The notes under the pieces are model-generated. The model saw only the letters and a list, made by a program, of their open reading frames with translations. It was not told the origin of the DNA and did not search any database. 64,000 nucleotides of DNA, from positions 1-64,000 of the forward strand of contig JAKFUL010000010.1 of NCBI GenBank assembly GCA_021732665.1. The letters run 5' to 3'. Source of the stretch: Acetobacteraceae bacterium (GTDB lineage: Bacteria; Pseudomonadota; Alphaproteobacteria; Acetobacterales; Acetobacteraceae). The number at the start of each line of letters is the position of its first letter. Position 1 is the first letter of the stretch. This document shows positions 1 through 7,983 of the stretch, piece by piece. The position numbers and the translations under genes are program-made.

Positions 1-1
1 C

Positions 2-70
2 ATGACACTGGAGACCATCAGCGCCATCAGCGATACTGCATCCGTCAGCCTGCCTGCTGTGGCCGTCTGA
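2..70 (+). CDS. Possible 3' end of a gene entering from the left (22 codons visible)
   Basis: An open frame runs from the window edge to a TGA at 68-70. It begins with an ATG at position 2, which may be internal. The visible peptide is short, rich in Ser, Ala and Val, and matches no family I recognise. It lies on the same strand as the Abi-type gene that starts 44 bases later. It may be the tail of another gene of the integrated element or a chance frame. Confidence 0.2.
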   Translation: MTLETISAISDTASVSLPAVAV

Positions 71-114
71 CACGGCGGCTCAACCCGCTGAGGTCATCGC
101 TCCTACACCACGCG

Positions 115-804
115 ATGGGACACGATCCGTTTGACGGCGGCGATGCAATCTATAAGGAACTCCGTCGCCACTTCGCACAGCGCGCCGATACGAAGGGAAA
201 GCTCCCCGATTTCGTGCGCCGATGCAGCGATCTTGCGCAGTTCTGGGGCTGGATCAAATACGAGAAGCCAAGCTACGCGGAGCGTCGGCAACTTATCTGG
301 GGCGCGTTCCGGCCGCTGATTGAACACCTCGAAGGGCTTGATCGCACGCCGGCCGTTGCGCCGATCACGGAAGCCCTCGAAGCCTTCGACCCGGACAACG
401 TGCACGCCGCGTGGCAAAAGGCACTTGATCGCCGCACCACCGATCCCGAAGGCGCCATCACGGCCGCGCGCACGTTGCTCGAAACCGTGTGCAAGCACGT
501 GCTGGACGACGCGGGCACAACATACCCGGACGACGCTGACCTTCCGAAGCTTTGGGGCATGGCATCGGAGCGATTGAACCTCGCGCCGAGCCAACATCAT
601 GAAGAGAGCTTCAAGGCAATCCTTGGAAGCTGCCAGCAGATCGTTAACCGGCTCGGCACGTTGCGGAACAAGATCAGTGATGCGCACGGACAGGGAAGGC
701 GCCCGGTGCGCCCGAAGCCCCGGCATGCGGAACTCGCGGTGAACCTCGCCGGCACGATGGCCGCATTCTTGGTCGCGACATGGAAGGAACGCGAGACGAA
801 ATGA
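115..804 (+). CDS. Abortive infection family protein with Abi_C C-terminal domain
   Basis: A 229-aa soluble protein. The C-terminal third carries the pattern typical of the abortive infection C-terminus family (Abi_C, PF14355): an RNKISDAHGQG segment at about residues 182-192, followed by a helical RHAELAVNLAGTMAAFLVATW stretch near 205-225. The N-terminal part is helical and charged with no motif I recognise. Known members are phage-defence or HEPN-like proteins; the RN...H spacing recalls the HEPN RNase RxxxxH motif, but that is inference. It is the only gene on the plus strand in the element and ends 5 bp from the convergent membrane-protein gene, a usual position for cargo. No good Shine-Dalgarno precedes the ATG, so the start is uncertain. 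Confidence 0.72.
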   Translation: MGHDPFDGGDAIYKELRRHFAQRADTKGKLPDFVRRCSDLAQFWGWIKYEKPSYAERRQLIWGAFRPLIEHLEGLDRTPAVAPITEALEAFDPDNVHAAWQKALDRRTTDPEGAITAARTLLETVCKHVLDDAGTTYPDDADLPKLWGMASERLNLAPSQHHEESFKAILGSCQQIVNRLGTLRNKISDAHGQGRRPVRPKPRHAELAVNLAGTMAAFLVATWKERETK

Positions 805-809
805 AGCCG

Positions 810-5639: not shown

Positions 5640-5948
5640 CTACGCGGCGCGGCTGGCGCGCTTCGGCTTGTCGCCGAGCGTGCGAGCGTGCGTGTCGGGG
5701 AGGTTGCGCTTCACCTCAAGTGACGGCTGCGAAGACAACCAGTTCCACGCATGCTCGGCGTCCAGCAGCACACGCGAGCCGATCTTCACCAAGCGGAGAT
5801 GGCCGCGCGCCGCGTAGTTGTAGAGGCTGGCCCGGCACAGGTTCGTGACGGGGCATCGCTCCGCGTTCTTCGGCAACGGCAGGAACCGGCCGACATAGGG
5901 GTTCGCCAGCGTCAGCTTCGGCATGGGCGGATTGGGCGGGTTCGGCAT
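5640..5948 (-). CDS. AlpA-like helix-turn-helix DNA-binding protein (excisionase or regulator)
   Basis: A 102-aa protein. The start at 5948 has AGGAG nine bases upstream. After a Pro/Asn-rich N-terminus (PNPPNPPMPK), residues about 30-75 carry a compact MerR/AlpA-like fold: LCRASLYNYAARGHLRLVKI then GSRVLLDAEHAWNWL, in which the first helix pair binds DNA and the RLVKIGSRVLL hairpin forms the wing. Such proteins act as recombination directionality factors or as activators of the integrase in P4-like elements. It is the first gene inside the integrase and precedes the primase-helicase by 125 bp on the same strand, so all three could be co-transcribed. Confidence 0.72.
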   Translation of the reverse strand: MPNPPNPPMPKLTLANPYVGRFLPLPKNAERCPVTNLCRASLYNYAARGHLRLVKIGSRVLLDAEHAWNWLSSQPSLEVKRNLPDTHARTLGDKPKRASRAA

Positions 5949-6248
5949 TGGTGCGTCTCCTGTCTCGGCTTGCGGGTGGTTATCTCCCGCTCTGCGCTGA
6001 TAGACAGAAAAACCTCGCCTACACTTGCGGTTCAACTACTCGTTTTGATTGGTTACGCGCAACGGAAATATTAGCCTCTTTTGTAGCCTACCCAAGTTGT
6101 TCAAATACAAGAAACCGCAGCGACCATGCAACACATCGCGTGGCCATTATCACGAATTGTTTCAAATCCAATAGCCTTCTTTATAGCTCTGCTGACGCGC
6201 CTGCGAGCGCGCCAGTTCGCCGCGCCGCGCGCGAGTGCGCCACCTCGA
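5949..6248. other. AT-rich intergenic region between AlpA-like gene and integrase
   Basis: About 300 bp with no gene and lower GC than the flanks, especially 6040-6190. It lies just upstream of the AlpA-like gene and downstream of the integrase, so it most likely carries the promoter of the AlpA/primase unit. I see no clear palindrome or terminator. Confidence 0.4.
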
Positions 6249-7655
6249 TTACGGGCGCGCCGCAGCCTCGCCCGCGTCGGCATGCAAGCGATGCACCGCG
6301 GCCGGTTCCTTGGTGCAGTAGGCCGTCCAATCCGCCATCAACGCCCGGCGCTTCTCGAAGAGGTCGCCGCGCGCGTAGGCTGCTTCCGTCTTGTCGGCGA
6401 CCACGTGCGCAAGCGCCATCTCTGCGACGTGCACGGGATGCGAGGTCGCCTCGCCGGCATAGTCCCGGAAGCTGCTGCGCGCCGTGCCGTGCGCTGTCAC
6501 CACCTCGCCCTTCGCGTCGCGCCAATCCATCTTCCGCAGAACGGCCGTGAGGGACATGTCAGACAGCGGCGTGCCCTTCCGCATGCCCTCGAAGATCAGC
6601 GCGTCAGGCTCGGGCTTGCCGTCCTTCGGCGTCATTGCGCGCAGCAATGCGACTGCGGCCGGTGCCAGCGGCACGCGGTGTTCGCGCTTCCCTTTCATGC
6701 GCGCGGCCGGGATCGTCCACACGGCCGCGTCAAGGTCCACCTCCCGCCACGTGGCAAGGCGCACCTCGCTACTGCGCGACGCGCAGAGAATGGCGAACTC
6801 CAAGGCGCGTGCGGACGTGCCTTCGCGCTTGCGCAGCGCCGCCATGAACTCGGGCAGTTTTCGCCAGTCAACGGCGGCGTGATGCTCAACCTTCTTCACC
6901 TCGCCGCGCGCCTTCAACGTCAGGGCGAGGTGTCCCTTCCATCGGGCCGGGTTCGGACCCTCGCGCCACTTGTGCACCGTGGCGTAGTCCAACACGGCTT
7001 CAATGCGACCGCGCAGCCGGCTCGCGGTTTCCGCCTTACTGGCCCAAATCGGGCGCAGCGCGGCCAGCACGTGCGACGTGTCCACATCGGCAACCGACAC
7101 TTCGCCGAAGTGCGGGGTGGCGTAGGTGGTGAGCGTCATGCGCCATTGGGCAAGGTGCTTCTCGTTCGCACCGGCGCGGCCGTCCACCTTGTTTGCAAGG
7201 AACTCTTCGGCGGCTTGCTTGAAGGTGACGGCGCGCAGCTTCGCGCGCTCGGCTTCGGCCGCCTTCGCCTTCTCCCGCGCGTCGCGATCCTCCAAGGGGT
7301 CTATGCCTTCGCGGACCAGGCGAAGCAGGGAAGCCGCCTTCTCGCGGGCTTCGGCGAGGGACAGCGGCGCGCCCGACACGGAACCGGGAGCCGAGCCTAG
7401 ACCCATCTCGCGGAGCTTCTTCCCTGGCATCGTGTATCGGAACAGCCAGAACTTCACCAAGGGCGGCGCTTTCGCGGCACGGCCGCCAGCCGGCTGCGGC
7501 TCGCCCTCGCCGGATGCGTCATCGTCTCGCACCACGGCGGGGCGCACCAAAAGGTAGAGGTTGGCACCCGCGCCATACCGCTTCGGCTTGCCTCCCGGTC
7601 CCGGCTTGGCGTTCTGGACGGCAACCGCCGTCAGTCCCTTGGCGATCCGCGGCAT
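6249..7655 (-). CDS. Tyrosine site-specific integrase (P4 type, DUF4102 arm domain)
   Basis: A 468-aa tyrosine recombinase. Residues 1-115 match the DUF4102 arm-binding domain: start MPRIAKGLTA, the YLLVRP strand, KFWLFRYTMPGKKLREMGLG, and a SLAEAREKA helix. Residues 135-245 form the SAM-like core-binding domain. The catalytic domain shows CASRSSEVRLATW with the first Arg (about 295), HRVPLAP, the box II HGTARSSFRDYAGE (about 385), EMALAHVV, and AAYARGDL with the nucleophilic Tyr near 426. In box II the His and Arg are four apart (H-G-T-A-R) rather than the usual HxxR, a point worth checking. It sits 238 bp from the 3' end of tRNA-Ser and is oriented away from it, the normal layout for a tRNA-integrating element. 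Confidence 0.93.
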   Translation of the reverse strand: MPRIAKGLTAVAVQNAKPGPGGKPKRYGAGANLYLLVRPAVVRDDDASGEGEPQPAGGRAAKAPPLVKFWLFRYTMPGKKLREMGLGSAPGSVSGAPLSLAEAREKAASLLRLVREGIDPLEDRDAREKAKAAEAERAKLRAVTFKQAAEEFLANKVDGRAGANEKHLAQWRMTLTTYATPHFGEVSVADVDTSHVLAALRPIWASKAETASRLRGRIEAVLDYATVHKWREGPNPARWKGHLALTLKARGEVKKVEHHAAVDWRKLPEFMAALRKREGTSARALEFAILCASRSSEVRLATWREVDLDAAVWTIPAARMKGKREHRVPLAPAAVALLRAMTPKDGKPEPDALIFEGMRKGTPLSDMSLTAVLRKMDWRDAKGEVVTAHGTARSSFRDYAGEATSHPVHVAEMALAHVVADKTEAAYARGDLFEKRRALMADWTAYCTKEPAAVHRLHADAGEAAARP

Positions 7656-7893
7656 GTCTCCCGATCCTTCGCCATAGGGAGCGGCCGATTCGATCCCCGA
7701 ATGCGTCCCCTAATAGGAAATTTGGTGCGGGGTCCGCAAGCTTGACGTGCAATGGACACGCGGACGCAGGCCGTCGCGCTGCGCAGCCCAATAAATAGCC
7801 CTGTTTTCAGCTAGTTATGCAGCCTTTTGCGCAGCCGATTGGGCGCGCATACGCGGCGTTGACGCTAGATGGATGGGGTGGAAATGGGGTAAC
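7656..7893. other. Integrase-to-tRNA junction, expected att region
   Basis: This gap separates the integrase start from the 3' end of tRNA-Ser and should contain the arm-binding sites and the element end. By analogy with P4-type elements the crossover lies in the tRNA 3' half. No second copy of the tRNA 3' sequence was found in positions 1-7650, so the partner att site is outside the window. Confidence 0.45.
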
Positions 7894-7983
7894 TGGCGGA
7901 GAGGGTGGGATTCGAACCCACGGTACCCTTGCGAGTACTTCGGTTTTCGAGACCGACGCGATCGACCACTCCGCCACCTCTCC
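7894..7983 (-). tRNA. tRNA-Ser(CGA), with encoded CCA
   Basis: The minus strand folds as a class II tRNA. The acceptor stem is GGAGAGG/CCTCTCC with discriminator G and CCA. The anticodon stem TCGGT/ACCGA carries the loop CTCGAAA, giving anticodon CGA for UCG codons. There is a long variable arm and the T-loop GGTTCGAATCC. It serves as integration target for the element to its left: the integrase gene lies next to its 3' end. Confidence 0.95.

Follow-up and report, generated by a model that had tools for sequence, protein, structure and literature searches.

What kind of element occupies the first 8 kb of this Acetobacteraceae contig, where an integrase gene, a putative AlpA-like gene, a primase-polymerase (prim-pol)/helicase gene, a phage capsid cement gene of the Bbp16 type and an Abi_C defence gene lie beside a serine tRNA gene? 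The window, that is, the whole stretch analysed, comprises positions 1-64000 of contig C2 (64,000 nucleotides) in an assembly of 53 contigs that is estimated to be 69% complete. Moving away from the tRNA, the gene order is integrase, AlpA-like, prim-pol/helicase, a small gene (orfN), a short frame (2284-2634), Bbp16, a conserved gene at 810-1481 and Abi_C, with Abi_C on the plus strand and the other element genes on the minus strand. A previous sequence-only reading left open whether this is a satellite or a decayed prophage. We assign a probability of roughly 0.58 to the reading that most of one element, damaged by a deletion, lies in the window, and that it belongs to a family of phage-satellite-like elements of 12-14 kb in Roseomonas-like Alphaproteobacteria, which would redirect the capsid of a helper phage. 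A new family of satellite-like elements is the best reading of the set as a whole. Seven relatives favour the satellite side of the earlier alternative, and its other side is partly borne out in the window copy itself, which has suffered an internal deletion.

The relatives were found through a scaffold-like protein of 218 residues encoded in genome G265. An alignment of this protein with its G095 homologue (A3) matched 13 of the 397 host-family genomes, and these 13 are the starting set. G297 (where the match lies next to a gene for the large terminase subunit, TerL) and G313, G235, G365 and G400 (short or weak matches) were dropped as elements, and the first match in G095 (G095a) was excluded as a phage remnant. 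Eight elements remain: the one in the window and those in G265, G264, G095 (the second match, G095b, on contig C54), G067, G076, G259 and G089. Their shared order is integrase, regulator, prim-pol, small genes, scaffold-like gene, cement gene where present, conserved gene and cargo. The prim-pol and scaffold-like genes occur in all eight, a 138-residue gene in six, and an integrase of the window type in G265, G264, G095b, G067, G076 and G089; the G259 integrase is different. The sequence-only reading had proposed to look for the same integrase-regulator-primase order in related genomes, and these seven further elements show it, six of them with repeats of a tRNA end.

These repeats define the elements. 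Wherever both ends lie on one contig (six of six), the 3' end of the tRNA is repeated at the far side, which gives sizes of 11.8-14.0 kb: G265 (15 bp repeat, 13,222 bp), G067 (18 bp, 13,254 bp) and G076 (16 bp, 11,825 bp) at tRNA-Ser, G264 (14 bp, 14,042 bp) and G095b (14 bp, 13,990 bp) at tRNA-Ser(CGA), and G259 (50 bp, 13,825 bp) at tRNA-Glu. Matches of the same length turn up by chance in other 70-bp windows at rates of 40/3938 for G265, 95/2648 for G264, 77/2562 for G095b, 0/2034 for G067, 16/3909 for G076 and 0/3681 for G259. Because single repeats of 14-15 bp are not rare (1.0-3.6% of 70-bp windows), the evidence for the ends is the set of six, each at a tRNA 3' end. The G265 element belongs to Neoroseomonas nitratireducens PWR1 (contig NZ_JAGIYZ010000003.1) and is the sole match of a prim-pol search of genome contigs. 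It adjoins tRNA-Ser(GCT), with the 15-bp repeat 13.2 kb further on, and to judge from its sequence it is apparently a complete copy.

At the window's integration site, ARAGORN places a tRNA-Ser(CGA) gene at 7894-7983 on the minus strand, as the sequence-only reading had claimed for a tRNA-Ser. Its 3' end (7894-7907, minus strand) carries the presumed attachment (att) core CACCCTCTCCGCCA, the same 14 bp found at both ends of the complete elements in G264 and G095b. A repeat of this end had been suggested as the mark of a second att site, and none was found: CACCCTCTCCGCCA is single-copy in the window's own assembly, with no partner repeat. The element's far end lies beyond the contig and is unreadable because base 1 of the window is also the first base of C2. 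In three congeners (G007, G004 and G005; loci L122, L124 and L125) tRNA-Ser(CGA) is occupied by other material, none of it demonstrated as prophage. By eye, the contents there are a different element that includes a helicase gene, a serine recombinase accompanied by a Wadjet-like ATPase operon, and an insertion sequence remnant beside leu genes. Near the contig end, a 52-bp stretch just before Abi_C (80-131) has a second copy of 88% identity on the opposite strand at C2:99764-99815, which adjoins tRNA-Thr and, by eye, an apparent integrase remnant. A 22-nucleotide motif near window base 82 was not found in viral contigs.

The scaffold-like gene connects these elements with phages. When its family was compared with 30 gene clusters from Bbp16-bearing phages, the best match was the gene flanked by portal and capsid gene (E = 4.4e-6 by hhalign, probability 86.6%, with the two C-termini aligned), and the next-best cluster scored 0.022. 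An eight-row alignment searched against 385 genomes of the class matched 10, the window's included, and we inspected the gene's position in seven class loci (L185-L191, seven genomes) plus G313. The family model matches phage genes of the class with a best E value of 5.9e-13. In L185 and L188 the portal and head genes flank the match, in L187 the head gene follows it immediately, in L190 and L191 the portal gene immediately precedes it, and in L186 it is flanked by the portal and the tail genes. By PHROGs, the L185, L187 and L188 head genes encode major head proteins (9e-75, 3e-67 and 9e-48), and the scaffold-position gene of L185 belongs to phrog_3742 (9.1e-48). The intact 218-residue protein of G265 has no Pfam or PHROG match at E ≤ 1. 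The window's own fragment, the last 79 codons of the gene (2284-2523, minus strand; 51.9% to G265, 81-82% to G067 and G076), matches phrog_3742 (E = 0.0009) and so supplies an independent link to the phage gene. These alignments indicate that the scaffold-like gene is distantly homologous to the one that phages carry between the portal and major head genes. In G297, a 3.3-kb contig (L149) carries TerL and, within ~640 bp after it, a coiled-coil-like and a scaffold-like gene, a spacing too tight for a portal gene.

The second shell-related gene encodes the cement protein. The protein encoded at 1792-2253 (minus strand) matches PF21190 (E = 1.2e-10, 42.1 bits against a cut-off of 27.1), and a profile of the window protein with 18 viral relatives finds in the Protein Data Bank (PDB) the cementing protein of Bordetella phage BPP-1 (3j4u_H, E = 1.3e-13) and the capsid decoration protein 8cjz_B (2.6e-13). 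Its AlphaFold model has a mean predicted local distance difference test score of 76.8 and aligns with 3j4u_H at Z = 13.7 and with the Carin1 capsid chain 8cjz_A at Z = 12.6, the next structure reaching 9.3. Both the sequence and the fold of the window protein therefore agree with the BPP-1 cement protein, and the Bbp16 assignment of the sequence-only reading holds by family, profile and fold alike. It shares PF21190 and the fold with the BPP-1 and Carin1 proteins; whereas these belong to a phage capsid, the window protein sits in an element without a recognisable capsid gene. In viral contigs found via Bbp16 (45 loci), the genes usually run large terminase, portal, scaffold-position gene, capsid gene, Bbp16; gene names there were first assigned by order, and PHROGs confirmed terminase, connector and major head protein in the G188 prophage. 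Bbp16 occurs in 11 of the 397 host-family genomes. It follows a scaffold-position gene and a capsid gene in seven of these 11 (G188, G230, G240, G271, G342, G358 and G373), and the G091 locus is interrupted by a contig end, with tail genes present. The context in G265 and the window is unlike that in the other Bbp16-bearing genomes; here Bbp16 directly follows the scaffold-like gene.

The integration and replication genes named in the sequence-only reading are largely confirmed. The tyrosine integrase (6249-7655, minus strand) matches Phage_int_M (1.2e-29), Arm-DNA-bind_3 (7.9e-14) and Phage_integrase (2.5e-11) and is 87-88% identical to that of G265. The prim-pol/RepA-type helicase fusion (3496-5568, minus strand) matches PF09250 Prim-Pol (6.6e-34) and PF13481 AAA_25 (2.4e-34), with 63-64% identity to G265. 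For the small protein between them (5640-6035, minus strand), a probable regulator or excisionase, the AlpA label is no more than plausible. Pfam, PHROG and NCBIfam gave it no match at E ≤ 0.1, and its support comes from orthologues in G265, G264, G095b and G259 and from a small gene at the equivalent place in G067 that matches an excisionase/regulator family (2.2e-5). The integrases of the window, G264 and G095b, all at tRNA-Ser(CGA), carry an HGTAR motif, one residue longer than the HGFR or HGMR at this conserved motif in G265, G067, G076 and G089, and this difference may be linked with the choice of integration site. We considered HGTAR as integrase damage and rejected it, since G264 and G095b share the motif. 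Directly after the prim-pol gene, at 3191-3300, stand six GTGAGCA repeats with inverted arms; five occur in the same place in G265 and none in the other six members, and the region is a candidate replication origin. A conserved non-coding stretch after the scaffold and cement genes (1482-1791; blastn 70-71% over ~318 nucleotides to G067 and G076, overlapping the next gene by a few bases) is a candidate packaging or regulatory site.

Comparison with G265 reveals what the window copy has lost. Between prim-pol and Bbp16, G265 encodes orfN, proteins of 138, 273 and 204 residues and the 218-residue scaffold-like protein. Missing from the window are the 138-, 273- and 204-residue genes and roughly two thirds of the scaffold-like gene, a stretch that amounts to ~2.5 kb in G265. 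Its orfN (2432-2953, minus strand; 58% over 156 residues to G076 and 50% over 121 residues to G265) has probably been cut at the C-terminus by the deletion: homology to the G265 orfN extends to window position 2600 and to the G076 orfN for 156 residues, and scaffold-like homology begins at 2523 in a different frame. An assembly error is a possible source of this apparent deletion. From its sequence, the window copy is incomplete and probably impaired, and it may be immobile because the deletion spares only the last 79 scaffold-like residues. A separate loss has occurred at this place in G076, where the 273-residue gene is absent and the start of the 138-residue gene is fused to the 204-residue gene. 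The three small families gave no match better than 0.03 against phage gene clusters, the 138-residue family gave nothing better than 0.13 against the PDB, and the 273- and 204-residue proteins have no BLAST similarity to similarly placed genes of G095a. That remnant (L076 9689-14262), near tRNA-Ser(GCT), carries Bbp16, a scaffold-like gene and, by eye, genes like those for internal virion proteins; it has no capsid, portal or TerL model match, and two of the internal-virion-like genes have no PHROG match. The conserved protein at 810-1481 (minus strand; 44-56% in G067, G076 and G259) has a hydrophobic N-terminus by eye, no Pfam match better than 0.27 and, as a family, nothing better than 0.34 in the PDB. 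This gene, the scaffold-like remnant, the GTGAGCA repeats and the contig end at base 1 had escaped the sequence-only reading.

The cargo consists of defence-type genes in seven of the eight elements (the cargo end of G089 lay outside the scan). The Abi_C call of the sequence-only reading is upheld at 115-804 (plus strand) by Pfam (1.7e-22) and PADLOC, which reports AbiJ (5.8e-21). Cargo in G265 follows Bbp16 on the other strand and comprises SieB (8.7e-9), a C5 DNA methylase (6.5e-66) and Vsr (8.8e-28). G067 has a single 806-residue frame with type II restriction endonuclease and C5 methyltransferase matches, G264 a type II methyltransferase, G095b a methyltransferase with PDC-M19A/B candidates, and G076 a C5 methyltransferase (by BLAST). 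The SieB, methyltransferase and third gene of G259 are 94-97% identical to those of G265 (L074/L075 against L150/L151), and since the integrases and integration sites of these two elements differ, the cargo appears to move between members. The suggestion that a satellite here carries anti-phage cargo thus gains from the seven related elements, six of which have both ends and tRNA-end repeats.

The identity, ends, gene set and homologies of these elements can be read from their sequences, and from them we infer that the elements depend on a helper, excise, replicate from the repeat region and redirect the capsid. Infection by a helper phage, or its induction, would cause the element to excise, and the excised form would copy itself with its own prim-pol from the repeat region. 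It would then supply its own scaffold, the C-terminal part of which may bind the helper coat protein and compete with the helper scaffold; this step is modelled on SaPI1 CpmB. The resulting shells would suit a 12-14 kb genome, and the Bbp16-type protein could lock them, a step modelled on P4 Psu. A capsid gene would be dispensable if the helper provides the capsid, and the cargo would protect the host against other phages.

Several observations weigh against this proposal. No helper phage was seen, nor any induction, excision or transfer. Bbp16 is present in two of the eight elements (the window and G265), the window copy is without two thirds of its scaffold-like gene, and the small terminase subunit (TerS) is hinted at by a weak match of the 138-residue gene of G067 (0.025). 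The 'scaffold' name rests on gene position because PHROGs labels one family of the phage homologue, phrog_458, a 'protease' and leaves phrog_3742 unlabelled, and because no solved scaffold in the PDB matched the family (best 0.17); the G188 scaffold-position gene matches phrog_458 first, with phrog_3742 behind. In L190 and L191 a second scaffold-like copy, and in L189 the sole copy, lie after the tail genes, so the gene may encode another virion protein. In the empty-site check proposed with the sequence-only reading, joined G265 flanks compared with 35 congeners gave no clean empty site, the left flank with the tRNA being present in congeners and the right flank, beyond the tRNA end, appearing as a long match in G265 only. 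Finally, no close relatives of the window prim-pol or of the G265 scaffold (or its two-row alignment) were found in IMG/VR by searches seeded with short peptide patterns, which work best for close relatives, and this weakens the idea that the elements are packaged in particles.

How far do these points favour other explanations? The elements could be integrative defence islands that move otherwise (passively, by conjugation or by transformation), with scaffold-like and cement genes that block incoming capsids rather than serve packaging. The defence-type genes in all but one member and the missing IMG/VR relatives would suit such islands, as would the fact that neither TerS nor cos is demonstrated; the gene set and size nevertheless fit satellites better, and PMC8628076 reports a defence hotspot in P4-like satellites as well, so that we regard this explanation as unlikely. 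The window element could instead be what decay has left at one end of an ordinary Bbp16-type podovirus prophage, with most of the morphogenesis genes gone. Bbp16 beside a scaffold-like remnant recalls the capsid-gene neighbourhood of phages, the window copy is internally deleted, and G095a is such a remnant elsewhere. Against this stand the seven other compact elements, six with defined ends and none with a capsid, portal or TerL model match, and the position of Bbp16, which follows the capsid gene in seven family prophages and the scaffold-like gene here. Substitution ratios below 1 also speak against decay: dN/dS relative to G265 is 0.17 for the integrase, 0.34 for prim-pol, 0.38 for Bbp16 (74% identity) and 0.60 for the AlpA-like gene, pN/pS of the scaffold remnant is 0.23-0.29 relative to G067 and G076 and 0.68 relative to G265, and the 810-1481 gene likewise stays below 1. 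For the family as a whole, prophage decay is disfavoured, and for the window element it is improbable.

A satellite that builds its own complete capsid, like the capsid-forming phage-inducible chromosomal islands (cfPICIs), was a further option of the sequence-only reading. Shell-related genes are present, and G089 carries an 81-residue protein that matches a virion structural protein (4e-10). The observation that no portal or terminase is visible stands, however: Pfam and PHROG gave no portal, capsid or TerL match at E ≤ 0.1 among the window proteins scanned, and phage models run against the six-frame window translation gave a best portal value of 0.12 and nothing for the capsid gene or TerL up to E = 1. 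Against capsid, portal and TerL models built from Bbp16 phages only, all eight elements were without a match at E ≤ 0.001. Partial library scans (proteins scanned with PHROGs/Pfam: G067 8/3, G095b 2/1, G089 5/4, G264 3/1, G259 0/1, G076 0/0) revealed no portal, capsid or TerL among the G067, G095b, G089, G264 and G259 proteins, nor did the scanned G265 proteins contain one. The shell-related genes amount to a scaffold-like and a cement gene, and a self-made capsid is extremely improbable.

The helper itself might be chromosomal. A podoviral portal gene (PF12236) is found in six of nine genomes tested (the eight with elements plus G297) and in six of the eight with elements. The background is high, at 120 of 397 family genomes (ordinary prophages included), 28 of 102 genera and eight of nine genomes in the window's genus; for 6/8 against 120/397 a hand-computed binomial sum is ~0.012, uncorrected for kinship, and we set this association aside as evidence. 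In five element-bearing genomes the portal gene lies in a compact podovirus-like cluster (L201-L205; G265:C5, G264:C1, G095:C19, G076:C12 and G259:C12) with a scaffold-position gene, a capsid-like gene, tail tubular genes and a TerL-like gene. For the G264 cluster PHROGs confirms both the head protein and TerL, a LexA/XRE-like regulator lies by eye beside four of the five, and the G264, G076 and G259 clusters follow the same two host genes. The cluster looks vertically inherited across Roseomonas-like genera and is perhaps a podoviral gene transfer agent. It is very doubtful that the satellites ride in its particles, with their own scaffold-like and cement proteins fitting the shells to 12-14 kb, and the cluster's scaffold-position gene does not match theirs (hhalign E = 0.011, made without the L205 row). 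If they did, the satellites would use an inherited chromosomal particle cluster instead of a free phage.

We found no description of this family in the literature on satellites in Acetobacteraceae, in Roseomonas or with Bbp16, and a search on Alphaproteobacteria turned up just a Streptomyces system; most subscription papers lay outside these searches. If the satellite reading is right, it adds a satellite family to a bacterial group without one in the literature searched. It would also offer a testable case in which phage assembly genes, captured by a satellite and still recognisable as such, serve to redirect a helper shell, and direct testing is possible because the sequenced isolate PWR1 holds an apparently complete copy.

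Known satellites share parts of this plan. With SaPI1 and other phage-inducible chromosomal islands (PICIs), as described in PMC5644958 and PMC6092414, the elements have in common their size and the order integrase, regulator, replication, encapsidation and cargo. Their sizes of 11.8-14.0 kb fall largely within the 12-15 kb given for PICIs together with a conserved integrase, replication and regulator order, the regulator label being inferred here. PICIs are said in PMC6092414 to be free of phage structural genes, whereas cement and scaffold-like genes are present here, and cfPICIs have their own capsid genes, for which none of the eight elements has a match to models made from Bbp16 phages. 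Further marks of PICIs are att sites that prophages never use, and induction and packaging by a helper; in congeners the tRNA-Ser(CGA) site carries other elements, none demonstrated as prophage. The host class also differs from that of SaPI1, a cement protein is found in one branch, and no repressor was recognised among the scanned proteins. According to PMC5644958, SaPI1 CpmB competes with the 80alpha scaffold and has the same C-terminal motif for coat binding, and the phage match of our scaffold-like family is likewise C-terminal, although neither CpmB nor another scaffold matched the family in the PDB. The phage-inducible chromosomal minimalist islands (PICMIs) of Vibrionaceae are small satellites too, and AlpA is a frequent term in the PICMI paper; unlike the present elements, a typical PICMI encodes, as stated there, no capsid-remodelling genes.

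P4-like satellites of Enterobacterales, as described in PMC8628076, combine a tyrosine integrase, an AlpA-type regulator, a primase-helicase, the external scaffold Sid, the capsid-stabilising Psu and a defence hotspot, with Psu stabilising the outside of the shell. The present elements resemble them in having a tyrosine integrase, a putative AlpA-type regulator, a primase-helicase, a scaffold-like gene with, in one branch, a cement gene, and defence genes. No psu, sid, delta or epsilon names appeared among the Pfam and PHROG matches of the scanned proteins, with the libraries' coverage of all four unchecked. According to the same paper, neither Sid nor Psu is significantly similar to phage genes, whereas the scaffold-like and cement genes described here are homologues of phage genes, and for this reason the elements bear on the origin of the capsid-remodelling genes of satellites.

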